Assembly: GCA_002709695.1 (NCBI GenBank)
Contig: PAQF01000001.1
Coordinates: forward strand, 8,067 to 46,885
DNA: 38,819 nucleotides
Direction: 5' to 3'
Source: Candidatus Poribacteria bacterium
Lineage (GTDB): Bacteria; Poribacteria; WGA-4E; UBA9662
This document shows positions 4,286 through 38,440 of this stretch, piece after piece. A program made the position numbers and the translations under genes. How positions within the stretch are numbered: position 1 is the stretch's first letter; every line of letters starts with the position of its first letter. The notes below the pieces were generated by a model that saw nothing but the letters and a program-made list of their open reading frames with translations, ran no database searches and was not told the DNA's origin.

Positions 4286-7200
4286 CTACAATTCTGCAAC
4301 CATCTCCATTGTTAAGCGATGTTCTGGTTTTTGTCGTTTGGTTGATAGAAGTTGATAGTTTAAACGAAGAAGCAGATCGGTAAACTTGCGTACTTTGTAG
4401 TCTGCCGTTGTACGAATCTCATGGCTAACGCCTTCATAGAAATTGTATCTGGCAAACGGGATTCCTCCTTTACTTTTCCCGTTTGCCAGGCGATAATTGA
4501 TGTCGAACCTTCCTCTGTTGATGATCGAATAACTCAGGTGGTTTTCCATAGAAACTGTTTGTGTTCGTGTTTTAGGCTGATCATCAAATTCTTCAAAATC
4601 AATCGTATTTTGGTATATCCCAGTTATACCAACACGTATTGATCTGTTAATTTCGTAGCGAAGATTTATCTCGCTATTACGTTCTGCTTGATCCAGGTTT
4701 GAGATATCACCACGACCTCCAATTTCTGCGAACTTTTCCTGTTCTTTCCTTAGCTCAAGGCGAGTACTGACAGATAATCGTAGTGTAGGGTTGAGGGTAC
4801 AGCGCAGGTCCCAATCACTGCTACTTCGTTTTCTTTCACGATTATTTATTCGTTTATTTAAAGTCCGATTGGTCGTACGACCCAGATCGACATTGAGTTT
4901 TGGTGATGGTGAAAGACCAACTTGAAGTCTCTGGTTCAGACGGCCAAAAATAGTTCGAGCAGTTTGTAGATCCTGAAGCAAGTATAGGGACACTAAGTCT
5001 GCATTCTCTTGTTCTTCGGTCAAATTAATTCGAGCCAGTGCATTAATCGCCTTTAGGAAACGACGACCGAAGCTTAATTGTTTGTCATGTTTTGCCTTCC
5101 ACTGTCGGGGGCGCAATCTTATCTGTATTTTTGCGTCAATAGCAGAAACAGGTTTATCACTGACATTCTGTATATATTTAATATAGTCCCCTTTCTCATA
5201 ATCTTCACGGTAGTGGAGGTCATCGATTTTGACATAGTGTCCTTCCCCAGGGTGAATTTCCCGACCGTTGTAGGGGTTGATATTAGTATAAATTTCACGT
5301 CGCTCGGTGGCCAGTTTTTTGTCTAGTTCATAGTTGATTTGCAAATCGATAGTACGGTTCAACGGGGACATCCGCATTTCAATATCAGCTAATTGTGTGG
5401 TTGTGTTGGGTGCTCTCCCGCGAGTTGTCTCGAATTCACGGCGAGAGATATTGCTTGACAAGTTAGCCCATTTTTGAGGTTGAGAGAAGACCCCAATGGT
5501 CCATGTCTTGGCCTTTGTATTCGATTTCCAGTCTGTGAAACCGAGCATTTCTCCATCAATTTCCAGAAGTTCATCCTTTTCATACGATTCTTCCCAACCA
5601 TATTGAGCATTCACAGTAGCCCATTTGAATTCGGCTAGATTGACGAAAGCCTTAGAAACACGTCGTTTTCGGTTTAAGTTTAAGTTATCGTTTGGGTCTA
5701 AATCTACTGCTTCAAATTGCTCAATTGAACCATTTAGTGTCGACCCACGAATTCGTCGCGATAGGTTCCATTGATTTCTTTCTTTTCGAAATTGTTTTTG
5801 ATTGCCAATTCCTGAGGTATTGACTTGAGTATTATTTCGCAAACTGGGAAACTTCAACGGGGTGAGAAAAAAACCGTAGTTGATAAATGCCGTATCCTGT
5901 CTAGCGTGAGGGGATTCGTTGTCAAAAATTGACGAATCAATATTACGTGTTTTCCCTATTCCAGAACTGAACTGCATCCATTTTAAGGGTTGAAACTGTA
6001 TGTCGATGTCTACCAACCTTTCTTCGCCAACCGGAACGTTGGAAGTATCCATCAAGTACTGGTTATCGAATTGTTGTTCGGCATATAGTTCCTCATATTG
6101 GAATTGATTCCGGTTTTTGCTTGATGCACCAACAGGAACGAAACCGGCATCGGTTAATCGTAAATCTAGGTTGATGTCAAGTTTTTCAGTTGATGCATTA
6201 CCAACTAATTCCCAAGATTTTCCCAGAATTTTTCGATCAATTTGAGAGAAGGTATTTTTATCGGTCGCACTCAACGCAAATTTTCCACGCATCAACATGT
6301 AATCAATGGGCGAGATTTGCGCTTCAATTCCCCACACGGTGTGGCGTTGCGGTGCAATGAGTGATTTTTGATTTTCACCAACGTCCAAAATATTTTGTCG
6401 AAGGTTTGACATATCTTGGTCAGTCAGCATTGCATATGTGCTTTCTGGGTCGCTGAGGTCTGATTCAACAGCGTAAGAGAACCCGAGTTTGACTTGGTTC
6501 CCTAGAAAATCAAGCGATCCACTTACGCTTTGAAGGGTTCTTTGATAAATAAGGTCTTCTTGAATATATTCGAAGTCAACACGAATTACATCATTGCTGG
6601 TAATCAAATGTTTGCTGGTAAACTCAATAATAGGATCCCCATAATCCCGAATAAAGTAGTCGTTATTTTCACCACGACGCATGCGCTTACCATTTAGCCA
6701 AACAATCTCACTTCCAGCTTTGACAACCACATATTGACCCTCGACATCAATACGATATTCGCTTCTTCCTTCTTCACCTCTGATGGTTTTACTATCAGAT
6801 TGACCTTTTGGAATTGCACTGGGAATGAGTCGAAATGCTCCCCAACCAAAATTGCCCTCCACTGATACCCCTTCAAGTGCCATTGGAAACTGAACGTCAG
6901 AGTCGTCAAGTGATCCAACAAAATCACCAAATGTTGCATTAACATTTGGGCTGGTAATTTTAATGAGCTTCTGATCAATGTCTCGAATATTTTCTGTTGT
7001 CCCTTCAGGTTGAATTGGTAAATCTTGATCAGATAGCATGGCAATGACACTAACATTCTCAGCGACTTCACCATTTACGCTGATTCGTAGTTCCTGATTT
7101 TGTGTTAGAGAGCGACTACTACCAACAGAAATGCCAAACGTTTGAGACCCCGCTACCTGCAAAGTTGGTGGCTCATCATCTAAAATTGGTTCCTCACTTT

Positions 7201-7582
7201 TGGTGCCCTGGGTTTGGTCTAGTTCTTGAATTTTATTTTGTTGAGGAAAAAGATTTCGTTTATAAACTTTCTTAATTGCAAATGGAAATGATTGGTAGCG
7301 AGCGTGGACTTTTTGATGTACAAATCGCTGATTTAAAAAGGTGATTATTCCATCATTATAGTTGATTTTGTAATCGATATTACGTACGAGTTGGAAGTTA
7401 CTAGCTGTGATAGTTTCAGATTGAAGAAAGACGGGTGAGAACTGCAAAAGAATAGGGCTTTCCAAATCCAGAATTTCAAACGTTTCGTTCTTCTCAAGAA
7501 GAGATATCTTTTCAGGAAAACTAGAATCATTTTCCTTTGCTATGACAGGTTGGATGAACAAAAAAAAAGTATGAAAAAGCAA
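4286..7582 (-). CDS. Large outer-membrane beta-barrel-like surface protein
   Basis: A 1098-residue exported protein. The N-terminus is a hydrophobic stretch ending PVIA-KE, which reads as a signal peptide cleavage site. Residues 150-230 include LSDQDLPIQPEGT and IRDIDQ followed by NATFGDF, a block I associate with long surface/outer-membrane proteins of FCB-type bacteria, some SprA-like. The rest is rich in alternating polar/hydrophobic strands with many Arg, Tyr and Asn, and ends in an amphipathic strand (RLTMEMVAEL), consistent with a C-terminal barrel. Function unknown. The only in-frame start is a TTG at 7582 without a Shine-Dalgarno. A better ATG with GGGAAG upstream lies at 7650 in another frame, and one extra T in the 9-T run (7560-7568) would join the two into a complete signal peptide. 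Confidence 0.8.
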   Translation of the reverse strand: MLFHTFFLFIQPVIAKENDSSFPEKISLLEKNETFEILDLESPILLQFSPVFLQSETITASNFQLVRNIDYKINYNDGIITFLNQRFVHQKVHARYQSFPFAIKKVYKRNLFPQQNKIQELDQTQGTKSEEPILDDEPPTLQVAGSQTFGISVGSSRSLTQNQELRISVNGEVAENVSVIAMLSDQDLPIQPEGTTENIRDIDQKLIKITSPNVNATFGDFVGSLDDSDVQFPMALEGVSVEGNFGWGAFRLIPSAIPKGQSDSKTIRGEEGRSEYRIDVEGQYVVVKAGSEIVWLNGKRMRRGENNDYFIRDYGDPIIEFTSKHLITSNDVIRVDFEYIQEDLIYQRTLQSVSGSLDFLGNQVKLGFSYAVESDLSDPESTYAMLTDQDMSNLRQNILDVGENQKSLIAPQRHTVWGIEAQISPIDYMLMRGKFALSATDKNTFSQIDRKILGKSWELVGNASTEKLDINLDLRLTDAGFVPVGASSKNRNQFQYEELYAEQQFDNQYLMDTSNVPVGEERLVDIDIQFQPLKWMQFSSGIGKTRNIDSSIFDNESPHARQDTAFINYGFFLTPLKFPSLRNNTQVNTSGIGNQKQFRKERNQWNLSRRIRGSTLNGSIEQFEAVDLDPNDNLNLNRKRRVSKAFVNLAEFKWATVNAQYGWEESYEKDELLEIDGEMLGFTDWKSNTKAKTWTIGVFSQPQKWANLSSNISRREFETTRGRAPNTTTQLADIEMRMSPLNRTIDLQINYELDKKLATERREIYTNINPYNGREIHPGEGHYVKIDDLHYREDYEKGDYIKYIQNVSDKPVSAIDAKIQIRLRPRQWKAKHDKQLSFGRRFLKAINALARINLTEEQENADLVSLYLLQDLQTARTIFGRLNQRLQVGLSPSPKLNVDLGRTTNRTLNKRINNRERKRSSSDWDLRCTLNPTLRLSVSTRLELRKEQEKFAEIGGRGDISNLDQAERNSEINLRYEINRSIRVGITGIYQNTIDFEEFDDQPKTRTQTVSMENHLSYSIINRGRFDINYRLANGKSKGGIPFARYNFYEGVSHEIRTTADYKVRKFTDLLLRLNYQLLSTKRQKPEHRLTMEMVAEL
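7560..7568 (-). repeat. Nine-base homopolymer (T on coding strand) in the signal-peptide region
   Basis: A run of nine A on the plus strand (T in the sense of the outer-membrane gene) lies within the codons of the hydrophobic signal core. The ATG frame from 7650 has no stop until past the run; adding one T gives MSKITVYTRRQ... followed by FFILFFLFIQPVIA-KE, a convincing signal peptide. This could be phase variation by slipped-strand mispairing, transcriptional slippage, or a sequencing/assembly error. Confidence 0.6.
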
Positions 7583-12490: not shown

Positions 12491-13666
12491 CTAATTTCGA
12501 GATGCACTAGCTTTAACAGCAACAATTGTGATGTCATCTTTCTGCTGATTGGTTCCACAAAAACCAAACAAATCCTCTCGAATTTTTCTGCAGAGTTCGT
12601 CTGCAGAAAAATCGCTATTCTTTTTAAAAACTTGTTTGAGTCGCTCTTCACCGTAGAATTCTTCTTCTGCCTTAGTTTCAGCTTCTGTAAGACCATCGGT
12701 ATAGAAGAGAATCTTATTTCCCGCCTCAAGCTCGATTGTTTCCGTTTCGAACTCGGCAAACCCGAAACAGCCGAGTATCATGCCGCCTGTCTGCAATTCT
12801 TCTATCTTTTCCCCTTTTAACAACATGGGATAGCAGTGTCCTGCATTAGAGTAGGTAAATGTCAGTGAGTTTGGGTCTAAAATTCCGTACACCATTGTGG
12901 CAAAGAAGTCTGGAGTAGTATCGATAACCAGAAGGTCGTTGACACGTTTTAAAACAGAACTAGGAGATATATCCTCTCTACAAACAAGACGCATTGCTGT
13001 CCGAATCATCACCATTAATAAAGCTGCTGGGATTCCCTTTCCTCGAACATCTGCAATTACGATTCCAAGCCTGTTGTCTTCAAAAGGGACAAAATCATAA
13101 AAATCTCCAGAAACCGACATAGAACTTTCTAGTAGTCCGGAGATGTCAAAGCCTTCCAATTCAGGATCTGACTGAGGTAGCAAATGCTGCTGAATTGCTG
13201 AAGCGGTTTGTAGATGTTCCGCGAACTGTTCCATGCCATCTTCAGTAAACCAATCGCCCAAAGCACTGATCAACGGATTTATGTATTTTGCCTTGCGAGT
13301 ATGAGCAAGAATCGATTCTATTCTCAGCTTAAGTTCTTCAAGTTCAAATGGTTTAGTAATGTAATCATCTGCCCCCGCACTGAGCCCTTCGATTCGTTCG
13401 TGTGCTTGAGCACGTGCAGTGAGCATAATGACCGGAACATTTCTCATTTCAGGGGTTTGTTTGAGGTTTTTGATAACTTCAAATCCATCCATCTCAGGCA
13501 TCATCAAATCAAGCAAGATGAGATCTGGTTTGTGAATTCTTGCTCTTTCTAGAGCTTCAATTCCGTTTGAAGCAGTAACAACTTCGAATCCATCTGAAAT
13601 TAGTGTCATTTCAATTAATTGGAGGATATCGAGCTCATCATCTACAGCTAAAATTTTCTCCGCCAT
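12491..13666 (-). CDS. Response regulator with PP2C-type (SpoIIE/RsbU) serine phosphatase output
   Basis: About 391 residues. Residues 1-120 are a CheY-like receiver: acidic pair in AVDDELD, phospho-acceptor Asp near 53 in LLDLMMPEMDG, Thr in LTARA and Lys in YITKPFE. A linker leads to a SpoIIE/RsbU PP2C domain (about 165-390) with metal-binding GDFYD, DVRGKG, YTDGLTEA and DDITIV. Phosphorylation by the upstream kinase should control dephosphorylation of the STAS protein. The ATG at 13666 shares one base with the kinase stop (TGATG), a hallmark of coupling; a GTG one codon earlier is also possible. The stop is TAG, followed by the ribosome binding site of the anti-sigma gene. Confidence 0.92.
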   Translation of the reverse strand: MAEKILAVDDELDILQLIEMTLISDGFEVVTASNGIEALERARIHKPDLILLDLMMPEMDGFEVIKNLKQTPEMRNVPVIMLTARAQAHERIEGLSAGADDYITKPFELEELKLRIESILAHTRKAKYINPLISALGDWFTEDGMEQFAEHLQTASAIQQHLLPQSDPELEGFDISGLLESSMSVSGDFYDFVPFEDNRLGIVIADVRGKGIPAALLMVMIRTAMRLVCREDISPSSVLKRVNDLLVIDTTPDFFATMVYGILDPNSLTFTYSNAGHCYPMLLKGEKIEELQTGGMILGCFGFAEFETETIELEAGNKILFYTDGLTEAETKAEEEFYGEERLKQVFKKNSDFSADELCRKIREDLFGFCGTNQQKDDITIVAVKASASRN

Positions 13667-15993
13667 CACATTGTTGCTCCTTCATCAATGTCCACAAGCG
13701 GTAAGACAAATTGGAAATTACTACCGCGTCCTCCTTCGCCATCATCAACCCAAATCCGGCCACCATGCACTTCAACAATACTCTTTGCTATAGATAGCCC
13801 GAGCCCAGTCCCTCCCTGTTGTCGCGTATGAATATCACCATGTTGGTAAAATTTTTCGAAAACTTTCTGACGATTTTCAATTGGTACTCCAAAACCGTCG
13901 TCAATAACCTCAACATGAATAATTTTACCATCACTTTTTAACTTTACAGCAACACGTCCTTTTTCAGGTGTAAATTTAATGGCGTTTCCCATAAGGTTAG
14001 TTAGTATTTGTCCAATTCTCTCTTCATCCCCAAAAATTAATGGTAATGAATCGGGAACAATCAAGCTAAATTTGAGCTCTTTTTCATCCGCTTGTGGCTT
14101 AATTTCATCAAACCGCTGCTTGGTAATTTCCAAAATGGAGGTTGGTTCTCTTTTAATTTCTATACGTCCTGCCTCAATGCGTGAAATATCAAGTAAATCA
14201 TTAATAAGTGCAGCAAGTCGTTTTGACTGCCGGTGTACACGCACTAGGCTATCATGCTGTTTTTCATTAATTGTCCCTGTTTTCCCATCTAGAATAAATG
14301 AGACAAAACCAATAATTGAGGTCAATGGTGTTCTCAATTCGTGAGAAACCAAGGAAATAAAGTCAGATTTCATTTGATCTATTTCTTTGTCACGCGTAAT
14401 GTTTTGAAATGAGTAAACAGTGCCCAAAACTTCACCAACTTCGTCAAGGAAAGCAGTAGAAATTACTCGCAGTACCATCTGGCCGTCCTTCTTGTGGTTT
14501 AAAGTTACTTCGGAAGTTGCAACTTGGTTTTCAGAAATCAGTTCTTTATCTTCTTTAAAGATTTTTGCTAGTTGGTCATTTTCAATAACTTTGGCTAATA
14601 CTTCTTCTGAATTTGGCTCTTCAATTTCTAAAATGTATTCCGCTGCTGGATTGATGTGCAGTATGTGATCTTTACTATCCACTAAGATCAAGCCTTCGGC
14701 TAGTCCATTCACAACAGCAGTCATCTTTTTCTCTTCCGCCATTAGTTTTTCAACAGCACTCTTCAGGTTTTGCCTCATGGCGTTAAATTCCGTAGCTAGA
14801 ATTCCTACTTCATCATTAGTTGTAATTGGTATCTCTTGGTCAAACTCTCCATGACCTATAGCACGGGCGGCAGTCGCAACTTGCATGATCGGGGTAACGA
14901 TCCTTTGAGAAAAAAATAAAGCTATAGGGATAATCAAAATGGATATTATCATGGTAAATATTAGTATTTGTCTGGTTAGTATTGTAATGCCACTAAAAGC
15001 AATAGAAGCTGGCAAAGAAACTAAGACCGTCCATTTTACAAAATTCCGATCCCCCTGAGCCTCACGTAATAGACTGTTATTCTCCCATGTGCGTGTACGG
15101 GCCCAGCCGTAAACTTTTTTTTCTCCTTTTATCGTTTCATTGGTTTCTAGATCGTTAATTTGTTCAACCTCTTCCTCCATTTCATAGCCATAATATTCAT
15201 CACTCCCCTTGGCTGCATTAATAGCTTTCATAGCAGCATGGCTCATTTCAATGTCATCTCCAAAACTGTAGTTATTCTCGCGGGAAGCAGAGATAACCTT
15301 ACCAGTTTTGTCAATAATCGCTACTTGAATATCACTTTCGACTCCATCCTCAGGACCAATTTTTTTAACAAGATCCGATAATTCTGGCAAGGTTATTTCC
15401 GCGTGTAATATGCCAACAACCTGACCTTTTGAGTTTCGGATGGGCAGGCTAGTGGGGAGGAAATGAAGTCGCGTTTTTTGATTATATTGCACATTTCCAA
15501 CTTGATCATACCCATAGCCATTGTTATAAGTTGTAACCCACCAATCACTGTCGATTTCCTGTAGGTACAAACTTGAGTTAGATGCCTGAATTATCTGCCG
15601 ATGCAGATTTGTAATAATAATTTTACTTTGGGATCCAGCATACCCTTCAAGTTGCCTAATATCATCTTTCAATTCGTTATTGATTTGAAGCAAAACAACC
15701 GTTAATGGTAGTTCTGAAGAATTGTTACCATTGGCCTGTGAAACGACGGGTGCAATAGACTCGATATAGGACAAAATATTGGTTAAACGATCCAAAATGG
15801 ATCTATCTGCTTGGACGAGTTTTTCCTTCGCAATTTGTCCAAGGTTTTCACCAATTGTATTTTCAAGAGCTCTAACACCGTAATAGTATGCAAGTAGGGA
15901 AACAATAATTAATGGTACAAGTGAAATGAGGAGAAAAAGGAACACAAACTGGCTACGTAGTCCTGTTTTCGCTCGAAGGCGCTGAAGAATCAT
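13666..15993 (-). CDS. Membrane sensor histidine kinase with Cache-like, HAMP and PAS domains
   Basis: A 775-residue transmembrane histidine kinase. TM1 lies at about residues 15-38; a large extracytoplasmic region (40-330) looks like a double Cache sensor; TM2 is at about 335-357. HAMP follows (355-410, RIVTPIMQVATAAR), then a PAS domain (415-530). HisKA carries SLVSHELRTPLTSI with phospho-acceptor His 551. HATPase_c has LTNLMGNAIKFTPE (N-box), DDGFGVP (G1), FEKFY (F-box) and GGTGLGLSIAK (G2). It starts two bases after the STAS stop and overlaps the response regulator, so it is the sensor of the partner-switch. The ligand is unknown; Cache domains commonly bind small organic molecules. Confidence 0.94.
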   Translation of the reverse strand: MILQRLRAKTGLRSQFVFLFLLISLVPLIIVSLLAYYYGVRALENTIGENLGQIAKEKLVQADRSILDRLTNILSYIESIAPVVSQANGNNSSELPLTVVLLQINNELKDDIRQLEGYAGSQSKIIITNLHRQIIQASNSSLYLQEIDSDWWVTTYNNGYGYDQVGNVQYNQKTRLHFLPTSLPIRNSKGQVVGILHAEITLPELSDLVKKIGPEDGVESDIQVAIIDKTGKVISASRENNYSFGDDIEMSHAAMKAINAAKGSDEYYGYEMEEEVEQINDLETNETIKGEKKVYGWARTRTWENNSLLREAQGDRNFVKWTVLVSLPASIAFSGITILTRQILIFTMIISILIIPIALFFSQRIVTPIMQVATAARAIGHGEFDQEIPITTNDEVGILATEFNAMRQNLKSAVEKLMAEEKKMTAVVNGLAEGLILVDSKDHILHINPAAEYILEIEEPNSEEVLAKVIENDQLAKIFKEDKELISENQVATSEVTLNHKKDGQMVLRVISTAFLDEVGEVLGTVYSFQNITRDKEIDQMKSDFISLVSHELRTPLTSIIGFVSFILDGKTGTINEKQHDSLVRVHRQSKRLAALINDLLDISRIEAGRIEIKREPTSILEITKQRFDEIKPQADEKELKFSLIVPDSLPLIFGDEERIGQILTNLMGNAIKFTPEKGRVAVKLKSDGKIIHVEVIDDGFGVPIENRQKVFEKFYQHGDIHTRQQGGTGLGLSIAKSIVEVHGGRIWVDDGEGGRGSNFQFVLPLVDIDEGATM

Positions 15994-22045: not shown

Positions 22046-22135
22046 TGGCGGAGAGAGTGGGATTCGAACCCACGGTACGCTTTCACGTACACATGATTTC
22101 CAATCATGCCGATTCAACCACTCTCGCATCTCTCC
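22046..22135 (-). tRNA. tRNA-Ser(GGA)
   Basis: A 90-base class II tRNA. The acceptor GGAGAGA pairs with TCTCTCC; G73 and CCA are encoded. The anticodon loop TTGGAAA gives GGA, decoding UCC and UCU. It has a long variable arm and the T arm GGGTTCGAATCCC. It begins five bases after tRNA-Ala(CGC) ends. Confidence 0.95.
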
Positions 22136-22140
22136 AGCCA

Positions 22141-22213
22141 TGGAGCAAACGGGATTTGAACCCGTGACCTCATCCGTGCGAGGGATGCGCTCTCCCATCT
22201 GAGCTACTGCCCC
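22141..22213 (-). tRNA. tRNA-Ala(CGC)
   Basis: A 73-base tRNA beginning GGGGCAGTAGCTCAG. The acceptor has the G3-U70 pair that marks alanine tRNAs, with A73; CCA is not encoded. The anticodon stem CATCC/GGATG encloses loop CTCGCAC, giving CGC (codon GCG). It lies between two serine tRNAs. Confidence 0.93.
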
Positions 22214-22275
22214 AAAGTTAAAAGTATAAACTTACCTCAAAGAATTAAATCGGAAACTACACACAAACATTCAAA

Positions 22276-22343
<68 letters not shown>

Positions 22344-22365
<22 letters not shown>

Positions 22366-22823
22366 AAGATCTGCTGCCTACGTCTCCCGAAGAATGACTT
22401 CAATAACCTACTACTTTCTTCGGCCAAAACGCCTGATCTAACCTCAACTTGGTGATTTAACCTGTGGTCTTGCAAAAGTCCAAAGAGTGAATCAACTGCA
22501 CCTGCCTTCGGATCAGTAGCGCCGTAGACAACTCTCGGAATACGACTCGCCAAAATCGCCCCAGCACACATCGGACATGGTTCCAAGGTAACATAAAGCG
22601 TTGTATCAGTTAAACGCCAATCACCAATAACCATTGAGGCTTGTTGAATAACCAGTATTTCTGCATGCGCTGTTGGGTTTTTGGATTGTTGCCTCGTGTT
22701 ATAGGCACGCGCAGTAGCGACGTTTTCCTTCACAATAACCGCTCCAACTGGGACTTCTCCCACTTGAGCTGCACGGCGTGCTAAGCTTAAAGCTTGCTGC
22801 ATCCAAAAACAATCGCGTTCCAC
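22344..22823 (-). CDS. tadA: tRNA-specific adenosine deaminase TadA
   Basis: A 159-residue zinc deaminase converting A34 of tRNA-Arg(ACG) to inosine. The zinc and catalytic motifs are AHAEI (His 53, Glu 55) and EPCPMCAGAI (Cys 83, Cys 86), with VPVGAVIV upstream and RVVYGATDPKAGA downstream. The start is GTG at 22823; an ATG seven codons later would trim the first helix. The C-terminus (residues LERCESG and the stop) is encoded by the first 22 bases of tRNA-Ser(CGA). The substrate tRNA-Arg(ACG) lies 27 bases upstream on the same strand. Confidence 0.95.
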
Positions 22824-22850
22824 AATACAAAAATAGGAGCTACAAAAATA

Positions 22851-22924
22851 AGCGCCGGAGAGGATTCGAACCCCCGGCCTTCTGATCCGTAGTCAGATGC
22901 TCTGATCCGCTGAGCTACCGGCGC
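22851..22924 (-). tRNA. tRNA-Arg(ACG)
   Basis: A 74-base tRNA with acceptor GCGCCGG/CCGGCGC and anticodon stem TCTGA/TCAGA enclosing CTACGGA, giving ACG; A34 is the target of TadA, whose gene is next. No CCA is encoded, and the base after the acceptor is T, so position 73 reads as U instead of the usual A or G. Confidence 0.93.
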
Positions 22925-22934
22925 ATGATAAAAA

Positions 22935-23024
22935 TGGCGGAGAGGATGGGATTCGAACCCATGATGGCTGTTAAGCCATAACTGCTTAGCAGGCAGCCCG
23001 ATTCAACCACTCTCGCACCTCTCC
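22935..23024 (-). tRNA. tRNA-Ser(GCT)
   Basis: A 90-base class II tRNA with acceptor GGAGAGG/CCTCTCC, G73 and encoded CCA. The anticodon loop CTGCTAA gives GCT, decoding AGC and AGU. The variable arm is long. It is ten bases upstream of tRNA-Arg(ACG). Confidence 0.95.
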
Positions 23025-23042
23025 GAAAACATGCCTTTTCAA

Positions 23043-23130
23043 TGGCGGTAGGGGTGGGATTCGAACCCACGGTGACTCTCGCCACAACGGTTTTCAAGAC
23101 CGCCACAATCGTCCACTCTGTCACCCTACC
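23043..23130 (-). tRNA. tRNA-Ser(TGA)
   Basis: An 88-base class II tRNA with acceptor GGTAGGG/CCCTACC, G73 and encoded CCA. The anticodon loop CTTGAAA gives TGA, decoding UCA and relatives. It is the first gene of the tRNA cluster, about eight bases downstream of the predicted transcription start. Confidence 0.95.
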
Positions 23131-34996: not shown

Positions 34997-37900
34997 TTAA
35001 ACAGTTGAAGATTCCTGTTTTTGATACCTTATTTCCTTTACTGTATAACTGGCTAACAAAATTAAAACAATTAAGGCTAGGAATGAGCCAAGTCGTGCTC
35101 CGGGATAAGGATCAAACATGATCGGCTGAACTTGATCTAAGCTAAGAATGGTACCTACAATAATAGGCAACAAACTGAGGTGAAAGCGAAGTACCAGAAT
35201 GTAAACTGCTAAGCAGAACAAGGCAGTTCCGCCACCTGTCCACCCTAGTTTGGCAAAACTATCTACTTCACTGCTGACCATTGCCACCACCAACACAATC
35301 AGACTGATACTTCCTAAAATCCGTCGTCGGGACCAGCTAGCAGTGAAATAATCTAGTCCCACAATTGTTAGGGCTAGCATGACCGTCATTGAGAAAAATC
35401 TGGAGATAACGGCGATTGGCGAAGCTAAAAATGGGAAATAGGTGGAAACTCCGGAAAAGTCAGGCCAAAACGGAGCTAAACTTGGACTCAGCTTAGTTAG
35501 ACAGGTAGTTAAACCAACTACAGCTAGGCCGATCGCAATTCCCAGTAGACTTGCTTGCAGATTACTAAGTGATGTTTCGGGCTGTCTCCATCGTTTTAGT
35601 AAGCCAGCGATTAGTGCCAATCCCAAGCTAGCTGATAATCCTTGAATCAGGGTTTGGCCAAGAGCGAATAAAAATTGGTTGGTGAGCGGTTCGGAGGTAT
35701 TGAAAAAGTATTTCGTCGTTGCCCAACCGTTAGCTAAATCAAAAATGAAGACAACCGAGAGCAAGATGGAGAGCTTGATGAAAATGGGAACCGAAAAGTT
35801 TCCTCGACTCCAACTGACAATAGCCAAAACAAATCCAGCTAGAGTTACCAAGATTGGGAGTAGTCCCCAGCTGATTTTGACCATCTCCAATAAACTATTT
35901 TTTTCTCTTTCCCACCTTTTCCATTTTTCAGGCACATGGACATAGCGGTAAGCATCGACCACTTCATCACCAGCTAACCGAACTGTAATTCGAGCTTCCC
36001 CTATCAGCCCATCAGTGGCCTCCTGTAACAGATAGTTGACATGATCACGAAAAGTAAAGGTCCAGTCTCGACGGTTGGGTCGCTTCTGTAGATCTGCCGA
36101 AATTTCCTCCAACTGGCTCGGATTTAGTTGAAAGCGTTGCACCAAAACAGAGTGAGCTAACTCTCGAGCTGTTTCTTCCAATAGAGTAGCACCATCATGG
36201 GCCTCCGGTAGTTGATGAACGATTTTATCTAGTTTGCCATCGTATTTGAGATGAATCAGATACTCCTCTGCTCGCTCAGTTAGTTCGATTTCCGGGTCAA
36301 ATTGGGCATAGCGAATCACCCAGCGAGGCAGATCTAGGTAGTTATCCAGCATTTGCTGATGTACCTCTTTCCCACCTTGTTGCCAAACAAAGCGATCAGT
36401 TTGTCCAATCCCACCCTGGTTCAAGCGTGCAGCTTGCCAGGATTTTCCCAAATCGATTTGCTGGTTTTTGAGTGCTTCTTTGGCCTTGACCAGTGCTTCA
36501 GATCCATTGATTTCGAAGGCAGGAATCGGATTTTGGAATTGACCGAGAAAATACCATAGGAACAAACCAATCACGCCGACTCCCAGTATCAGCCAACGGG
36601 AGCCAGTTTTTATCTCGTTGGTTTGATCTGCCAAATGGTTTGAGTCGGTTGTTGTTTCTGATAGATTTCCTTGGGCAGCAGCTGGTGTAGGACTCCATGC
36701 TCGATTGAAGGAAATCTCAGGTGCCGGATGCCAACTTCCCATACGAAACCGGGCATAAATCAAAATCCAGATTGGTACCAGCGCCAGTAGGATTACCATC
36801 ATTTGGTTAAACCAAATACCGGTTGTGCTAGATACAAAAAGAGGCAAGGCAATTAAGACAACATCATAGACATAATGAAGTACTATTACTGGTAACAGAC
36901 CATAGACCAAATAAACACTGGCAAAGAGGCAAGACGGTACAAGCAATTCAATCAAGCGGGCATAGGCGGGTTGGGCGGGATAATTGGCATGTCCAGCTCC
37001 AAAGACAATAGCTTGTAAAATAAAAGCAGCTACAATCCAGAGCCAGCGGTGACCGAAGTGCTTCCCAAGCAAGGCAGCTCCAGCTAAAGGAACTGCACGG
37101 AATAGACATTCCTCCCAGAAACCAGCTTGCAAGGAAATGGCAATCGATGATAGCCAAGGAGAGTAAACGGCTAGGACGTCGGGGTTAAAGAGTGCTTCCG
37201 ATGGACTCCACCAGCCTAACAGCCGGCTGTTGATGAAATAAAAACCGACCACAAAAGCAAGCATCAAGCCAAGGAGCAAATAACCACCTATCGTTCGTCC
37301 AACCACGGCGGTAGACGATGCTACTTCTGGCGACCAAATGCGCCATAGCTGGAGATGGTGGGGGAAAGCCTTTCTGGATAGGCTTTCCGCTCCCATAAAA
37401 GACAGTGTCATCAAGACAGTGAAGATGATAAAGGTACCGATGGTTTCAATCAGTTGCTCAAGAATGTGTCTTGATGTCGATAGCGCTGTATCATAGACCA
37501 TCCAGCTCAAAGGTAGTTGATTCAGTTGTGCCAGTGCCTGTAACCCTGCAACAAAAATCCCCATATAAAGAGCTGGTTTCCAAATTATCCAGCCTTGCCG
37601 AAGTAGGAAGAAGGAACCGATCATACAACCACCGAGGATATAGACCAAGACCATGACCATACTGGCAACGAGGGCAATAGTGTTGTTAGCGGAACGCATC
37701 TCCTTATACCGGAGATCGAATTCTTCTGGAATCTTAACCCAGTGATTGAGGGCGGTTAAACGGTCTCCTCCGATAACCAACGTCAGCCGATAGTGTCCTT
37801 GATTAATTTCTTGATTGATTTTTAGATTTGGACGTTCATAGACAAAGGTATGATCAATACGGCCCCCGGGGCGAGTTTCTTTCGAGCTTTCTATTTGTTG

Positions 37901-38440
37901 GTAGGCGTTTAAGTCTGTGCTCCACTTATCGGTAGCTGCAGTTTCGGCTATGGCGCGGGCGGCCTCAACTGTCAGAACTGCTCCAGATTCATCTTCAGGT
38001 AACTGTTCAGTAAAACCATAGAATTCACCGGCTGGCGTGAATCTCAGGCGAACTTCATGTTTTTCGCCCTCTTGAAAATGTCGAACCACCCAAGTGTAAG
38101 GCGAATAGAAATCTCCTTTTAGCATTTGGCGAAAGGCATCGTTGCCACCGGCTTCCAATTCAACATAGTGCTGTGTCATGCTATCCAGTTGAAAAGAAGC
38201 AGCCTGTCGGAATTGGGGCGTTCCCCATCCATTTTCTTTAGCAAGTTGGCGAGCTTTATCCATCGCTTGTTGGCGGTTCATCCTGAGATCTAAATTAACC
38301 AGTGGGAAGGCTCGACCGAAATAGCGAACTGTAAACAAAATGCCGCTGATCGATAATAATAGGAAAATTAACCAGAAAATTGGCTTTCGTGTCAAAATTT
38401 TGTTCCTCACAGATTGAATACGTTCGGCAACCTGAAACAA
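34997..38440 (-). CDS. Large CPBP-family intramembrane protease-like protein with internal duplication
   Basis: A 1147-residue membrane protein. TM1 lies at about 20-38, followed by a soluble domain (53-255), then a membrane domain with the CPBP/ABI glutamic protease motifs: EECLFR (Glu 443, Glu 444, Arg 448), FGAGH (Phe 480, His 484) and HYVYD (His 522, in the HxxxN position). From about residue 615 another TM and a soluble domain (645-860) that resembles the first are followed by a second, motif-free membrane domain to 1135. The first half looks catalytic, the second half not. Starts are TTG at 38440 or GTG at 38410; no ATG is available. The substrate is unknown. G+C looks higher than in its neighbours. 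Confidence 0.85.
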   Translation of the reverse strand: MFQVAERIQSVRNKILTRKPIFWLIFLLLSISGILFTVRYFGRAFPLVNLDLRMNRQQAMDKARQLAKENGWGTPQFRQAASFQLDSMTQHYVELEAGGNDAFRQMLKGDFYSPYTWVVRHFQEGEKHEVRLRFTPAGEFYGFTEQLPEDESGAVLTVEAARAIAETAATDKWSTDLNAYQQIESSKETRPGGRIDHTFVYERPNLKINQEINQGHYRLTLVIGGDRLTALNHWVKIPEEFDLRYKEMRSANNTIALVASMVMVLVYILGGCMIGSFFLLRQGWIIWKPALYMGIFVAGLQALAQLNQLPLSWMVYDTALSTSRHILEQLIETIGTFIIFTVLMTLSFMGAESLSRKAFPHHLQLWRIWSPEVASSTAVVGRTIGGYLLLGLMLAFVVGFYFINSRLLGWWSPSEALFNPDVLAVYSPWLSSIAISLQAGFWEECLFRAVPLAGAALLGKHFGHRWLWIVAAFILQAIVFGAGHANYPAQPAYARLIELLVPSCLFASVYLVYGLLPVIVLHYVYDVVLIALPLFVSSTTGIWFNQMMVILLALVPIWILIYARFRMGSWHPAPEISFNRAWSPTPAAAQGNLSETTTDSNHLADQTNEIKTGSRWLILGVGVIGLFLWYFLGQFQNPIPAFEINGSEALVKAKEALKNQQIDLGKSWQAARLNQGGIGQTDRFVWQQGGKEVHQQMLDNYLDLPRWVIRYAQFDPEIELTERAEEYLIHLKYDGKLDKIVHQLPEAHDGATLLEETARELAHSVLVQRFQLNPSQLEEISADLQKRPNRRDWTFTFRDHVNYLLQEATDGLIGEARITVRLAGDEVVDAYRYVHVPEKWKRWEREKNSLLEMVKISWGLLPILVTLAGFVLAIVSWSRGNFSVPIFIKLSILLSVVFIFDLANGWATTKYFFNTSEPLTNQFLFALGQTLIQGLSASLGLALIAGLLKRWRQPETSLSNLQASLLGIAIGLAVVGLTTCLTKLSPSLAPFWPDFSGVSTYFPFLASPIAVISRFFSMTVMLALTIVGLDYFTASWSRRRILGSISLIVLVVAMVSSEVDSFAKLGWTGGGTALFCLAVYILVLRFHLSLLPIIVGTILSLDQVQPIMFDPYPGARLGSFLALIVLILLASYTVKEIRYQKQESSTV

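Follow-up and report, generated by a model that had tools for sequence, protein, structure and literature searches.

A putative CPBP protease of Candidatus Poribacteria fused to what appears to be a catalytically dead duplicate of itself

Why would a bacterium keep, in one membrane protein, both an apparently active intramembrane protease and a full-length copy of it that has lost its catalytic residues? The question is raised by an open reading frame in the window, the stretch of 38,819 nucleotides from Candidatus Poribacteria analysed here. Little is known about how bacterial CPBP proteases find their substrates or how they are controlled, and the joining of protease and pseudoprotease in a single chain, a union conserved over at least seven phyla, makes this question directly testable. 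The frame (34997-38440, minus strand) comprises 1147 codons from a TTG start codon whose exact position is uncertain; the open frame spans 1149 codons, so at most two further codons are possible upstream. Its parts are the following.

34997..38440, minus strand: whole gene, 1147 aa, two units, the second apparently protease-dead
38327..38383, minus strand: anchor transmembrane helix of unit 1 (residues 20-38), from hydropathy and the positive-inside pattern
37676..38293, minus strand: soluble domain 1, facing outward (residues 50-255), with two alpha/beta repeats, probably YpeB/PepSY-like
36746..37678, minus strand: nine-helix CPBP domain 1 (residues 255-565), with PF02517 at 428-528
37097..37114, minus strand: EECLFR (EExxxR), residues 443-448
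36989..37003, minus strand: FGAGH (F/WxxxH), residues 480-484
36863..36877, minus strand: HYVYD (HxxxD/N), residues 522-526
36593..36745, minus strand: cytoplasmic linker joining the units (residues 566-616), from the positive-inside pattern
35870..36535, minus strand: soluble domain 2, facing outward (residues 636-857), a homologue of domain 1
35036..35875, minus strand: nine-helix pseudo-CPBP domain 2 (residues 856-1135), from hhalign to domain 1, with no PF02517 match
35372..35389, minus strand: MTVMLA, residues 1018-1023, where the alignment places the EExxxR that half 2 has lost

Each unit thus consists of an anchor helix, an outer domain of about 200 residues that is probably YpeB/PepSY-like and a CPBP-type domain of nine transmembrane helices. 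From hydropathy and positive charges, both halves are predicted to share one topology, with the soluble domain facing outward and the C-terminal end inside. Short loops assigned to the inside carry 0.13-0.24 K+R per residue vs 0.02-0.09 for those assigned to the outside; helix ends were placed by hydropathy and by eye, and two inside loops of 2 residues are uninformative for charge. Pfam matched PF02517 once, in unit 1 (residues 428-528, E 3e-09, 37.5 bits vs a curated cut-off of 22.4), while NCBIfam and PHROGs gave no match to the protein. A full-length AlphaFold2 model, built from an alignment of two rows, was discarded (mean pLDDT 32, pTM 0.22).

The initial annotation had pointed to a similar layout in the two soluble regions, each followed by a multi-helix membrane domain, and both observations are borne out. 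The soluble domains align by BLASTP at 2e-14 with 24% identity over 243 columns, and the whole halves match each other at 1e-15. The nine-helix domains are homologous by hhalign (264 columns, probability 98.7, E 1.5e-16, with 13 homologues). A profile built from the first halves of the family matches 52/52 second halves, so the likeness is not due to chance. The homology of the soluble domains already speaks against their having unrelated folds. In this protein Pfam finds no PF02517 in half 2, and none of 13 second membrane domains matches it even at E up to 1; unit 2 is assigned to the CPBP family solely through its homology to unit 1. The genome's other PF02517 match falls within a 235-codon frame. 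A length of 1147 residues had been called exceptional: it is unusual for CPBP proteins generally, but typical of the two-unit family, whose single-ORF members measured 1096-1188 aa in the first search round (n=12).

Is unit 1 likely to be active, and unit 2 consistently dead? By our count, both copies lie in one long frame in 59 genomes. We aligned 51 of these (leaving out G025, G464, G484, G493, G510, G549, G640 and G643), together with the two separate genes of G176 and with L117, whose truncation restricts second-half counts to 52 of the 53 rows. The active-site set is kept in 52/53 first halves: E443 in 52/53, E444 and R448 in 53/53, F or W at position 480 in 53/53, H484 and H522 in 52/53, and at position 526 aspartate in 50 rows and asparagine in 3. 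The catalytic set is found in 0/52 second halves, where these columns hold mixed residues. The claim that EExxxR, FxxxH and HxxxD occur only in the first membrane domain thus holds here and in the aligned relatives. The sequences support a reading of the 1147-aa frame as a CPBP unit that is putatively active, with a full-length duplicate behind it that is catalytically dead. The one exception is the tandem protein L145 (genome G469), whose first half is without E443, H484 and H522; the active site was lost in its half 1 too, so proteolysis has been dispensable at least once. Unit 1 shares with CPBP/Rce1-like proteases both the PF02517 match and the three motifs. Rce1 cuts within the membrane, and by family membership unit 1 probably does so as well. 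Such cutting has been shown for the myxosortase MrtX, a bacterial CPBP enzyme that is needed and sufficient for C-terminal processing (PMC11980579). As described there, MrtX has 239 aa and a single membrane domain, whereas the protein studied here has 1147 aa, two outer domains and a second, apparently dead membrane domain.

A search for the same architecture in other genomes, proposed in the initial annotation, recovered the tandem form in at least seven phyla, the window's own counted. The soluble-domain profile found the family in 14 of 386 genomes (84 of the window's phylum, among the nearest, and the remainder from other phyla of the domain), 13 of which carry both copies within a single frame of 1105-1211 codons; a richer profile raised the number to 19/386 and alone detected the second copy of G090. 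Within the window's phylum the family is confined to its own genus (2/84 genomes), where a relative, L002 ('Candidatus Poribacteria bacterium isolate UWMA-0119'), has a protein 90% identical. Elsewhere, the phylum of G127 has matches in 53/82 genomes, 13 of these 53 with the tandem in one frame, and most non-tandem matches there are single-copy frames of about 800-870 codons. The phylum of G085 has them in 39/101, mostly genomes of 0.7-1.7 Mb, and 34 of the 39 carry two copies in one frame of more than 1000 codons. Smaller counts come from the phyla of G255 (2/80), G371 (1/2), G334 (2/3), G184 (1/1) and G140 (1/1, but only a SpoIIE-type protein, described below). In G176 the units are two separate genes with a 4-base overlap (L043:6433-9797, minus strand), a natural split form which suggests that both units are needed even when unfused.

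The surroundings of these genes gave no conserved neighbourhood pointing to a pathway. A run of neighbours is common only to G085 and G372, which belong to one genus, and three further small shared clusters look incidental. In G127 the tandem gene has a separate PF02517 protein of 306 aa directly upstream (L038:5107-6027, plus strand), and in G263 it has beside it an ORF of 324 codons (L046:3744-4718, minus strand) that shows one more weak match to the outer domain. Among mobile elements, tblastn gave a single weak plasmid match (28.5% over 11% of the query) and no phage match, and the viral contigs scanned held no relative.

How long have the halves been together? A tree of 126 units resolves three separate clans: the first halves (53/53, support 0.915), the second halves (52/52, 0.951) and the SpoIIE-type units (21/21, 0.986). 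Pairwise distances of half 1 vs half 2 correlate at 0.92 over 52 proteins, with 0/999 permutations as high, which argues that the halves are inherited together. Separate clans and joint evolution point to one old duplication that was retained, and a single duplication followed by joint inheritance fits these sequence data best. When three distant single-unit proteins, a nearer one and an additional SpoIIE-type unit were included, the rooting was weak and mixed: two of the three distant proteins grouped with the SpoIIE-type units, and the third lay close to the base.

Could half 2 simply be functionless, decaying sequence? It does evolve faster than half 1, with a mean tree distance of 3.53 vs 2.23 and a dN/dS of 0.22 vs 0.12 between the window protein and its L002 orthologue. 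These dN/dS values are nevertheless well below 1, the dead half is under purifying selection, and the full-length frame is kept open across at least seven phyla. On the strength of purifying selection and wide retention we reject decay, which we regard as barely credible.

Which parts of half 2 are conserved? Its second outer domain is strongly so, with R790 and G824 present in all 53 rows. Its membrane domain has no invariant residue across 13 rows and none conserved at 90% or more among 53. LnsB belongs to the CPBP family. It is reported to have a part in S. aureus lipoprotein N-acylation (PMC7387801), which would lend some precedent to unit 2 being a new enzyme or transporter that uses another active site within the CPBP fold. 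We nonetheless consider this very improbable, as the lack of invariant residues in the second membrane domain and the missing conserved polar membrane residues disfavour it. Outside the second soluble domain, only six positions of half 2 are conserved in at least 70% of rows. Such freely varying membrane residues are what one would expect of a structural partner that merely stabilises unit 1 and is neither regulator nor receptor. The conservation of the second outer domain goes beyond packing needs, and four proteins made of one unit (L189, L190, L191 and L192) carry EExxxR although the search detected no second unit in their vicinity, which indicates that fusion to a dead partner is not obligatory for a unit; both observations make a purely structural role unlikely. 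Five of the six positions (N904, T915, P918, Q922 and P1003, the sixth being G971) lie in predicted outward loops, which argues that the dead half is kept for an outward-facing role.

What might the outer domain be? It contains two repeats that align by hhalign at E 5e-6 vs 0.05 for a reversed control. In alignment A6, which holds 25 of 27 outer-domain references (the second domains of G377 and G263 were omitted, and the 324-codon ORF of G263 had been omitted before the list of 27 was drawn up), PF16244 (DUF4901, YcdB/YcdC repeat) matches 12/25 domains at E up to 1, the best at 2.5e-8, and there are weak matches to PepSY (3/25) and YPEB_PepSY1-2 (1/25). The window's first outer domain matches none of the three, and by sequence the likeness of the window's own domains to YpeB, YycH or PepSY is weak. 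An AlphaFold2 model of this first domain from a four-row alignment reached a mean pLDDT of 58 and a pTM of 0.51, and was best in its second half. Foldseek returned nothing for it at E 0.001. A VIA search with the same model placed the YpeB C-terminal domain on top (Z 9.4, 119 residues, rmsd 4.5), followed further down by a WalK-YycH model (7.5), PsbP (7.3), EUBREC_2869 and YycH (both 7.2), and lower still by vibriolysin (5.2) and YpmB (4.1). On this modelling, with YpeB at Z 9.4 and YycH at Z 7.2-7.5, the outer domain likely has a YpeB/PepSY-like fold. Sequence searches against solved structures found none for the whole protein or for the profile of alignment A4; those with A5 (13 rows, as A4) and A6 gave weak matches of no clear relevance. 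We know of no YpeB, YycH or PepSY protein joined to a CPBP domain.

The most telling relatives are proteins of about 800-870 residues that join a single outer domain and a single CPBP-like membrane domain to a SpoIIE phosphatase domain. They are common in the phylum of G127, where some genomes hold several copies; our 21 (L049:5374-7857, minus strand, and the 20 loci L153-L172) were selected from the frames of about 800-870 codons in that phylum, G127's own included. PF07228 is matched in 21/21 and PF02517 still in 6/21. The equivalent of H484 is missing from all 21 units, while the second glutamate is kept in 12 and the arginine in 15, so their loss of the active site appears separate from that of the tandem second halves. 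Since the SpoIIE-type units form their own clan outside that of the second halves, catalytic function was probably lost on two or more occasions, and any analogy with unit 2 would be one of function only. Among SpoIIE-type PP2C phosphatases with membrane sensors, those examined here have the same outer domain and dead CPBP domain as their input part (21/21), but their output is a cytoplasmic phosphatase and not a protease, and the window protein has no phosphatase domain. The presence of an outer domain with a dead CPBP domain on SpoIIE phosphatases makes the dead unit look like a sensor module for different outputs.

This bears on whether unit 2 could be a fixed substrate receptor or scaffold, which would bind a substrate by its transmembrane or outer segment and offer this to unit 1 without any sensing, comparable to APH-1, a fixed non-catalytic subunit of gamma-secretase. 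Full-length homology, conserved outward loops and co-inheritance with the active half are all consistent with such a subunit, but the fusion of the dead unit to phosphatases with a cytoplasmic output suggests signalling, and we rate the scaffold as a possibility of modest weight. The initial annotation had suggested a substrate receptor or regulator. Purifying selection and the use of dead units in SpoIIE phosphatases favour a retained role for the dead half; sensing or control, rather than cutting, is probably what it was retained for.

We consider it about evenly balanced whether the protein is a CPBP (Rce1-like) intramembrane protease built as an intramolecular pair, with unit 2 as its built-in receptor and regulator. 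Unit 1, with its intact glutamate/histidine active site, would cut within the membrane; unit 2, a duplicate whose active site was lost long ago but which was retained, would bind an envelope ligand or substrate through its outer domain and outward loops and, by touching unit 1 in the membrane, would govern the timing of substrate access to the active site or the choice of substrate. That unit 1 is proteolytic, that the halves touch and that unit 2 regulates unit 1 are inferences. More broadly, and with a little less than even confidence, the outer domain with a dead CPBP domain may represent a class of bacterial transmembrane receptor derived from a retired intramembrane protease, with the active self-copy or a SpoIIE phosphatase as outputs. 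In that case the tandem protein would amount to an intramembrane protease that is ligand-gated and complete in itself. The SpoIIE fusions offer a parallel, easily assayed output of the related dead unit.

iRhom and Derlin are eukaryotic, belong to another fold and superfamily and are not known to be joined in cis with an active protease. They resemble the receptor-regulator proposed here in being retired relatives of intramembrane proteases: they are reported to be dead rhomboid relatives kept as regulators (PMC3149277, PMC6451368, PMC8641752). Within the CPBP family, the Abi-domain protein Abx1 of group B Streptococcus acts on the CovS kinase independently of protease activity, a precedent for non-proteolytic action on a signalling protein; Abx1 works on a separate kinase, and the accessible part of that article (PMC3578759) describes no fusion to an active copy. 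A further analogy is the membrane protease SpoIVFB, which is reported to be blocked by a helix of its partner BofA (PMC9042235). In the PMC literature, with subscription journals and preprints outside the scope of the search, we found no description of a tandem protein of this kind.

Elsewhere in the window, a response regulator-SpoIIE protein adjoins a Cache/HAMP histidine kinase with a 4-base overlap (12491-15993, minus strand). A 1098-codon ORF (4286-7582, minus strand) has no Pfam match at E 1e-5, and six tRNA genes are clustered at 22046-23130 (minus strand), four of them tRNA-Ser genes with different anticodons.
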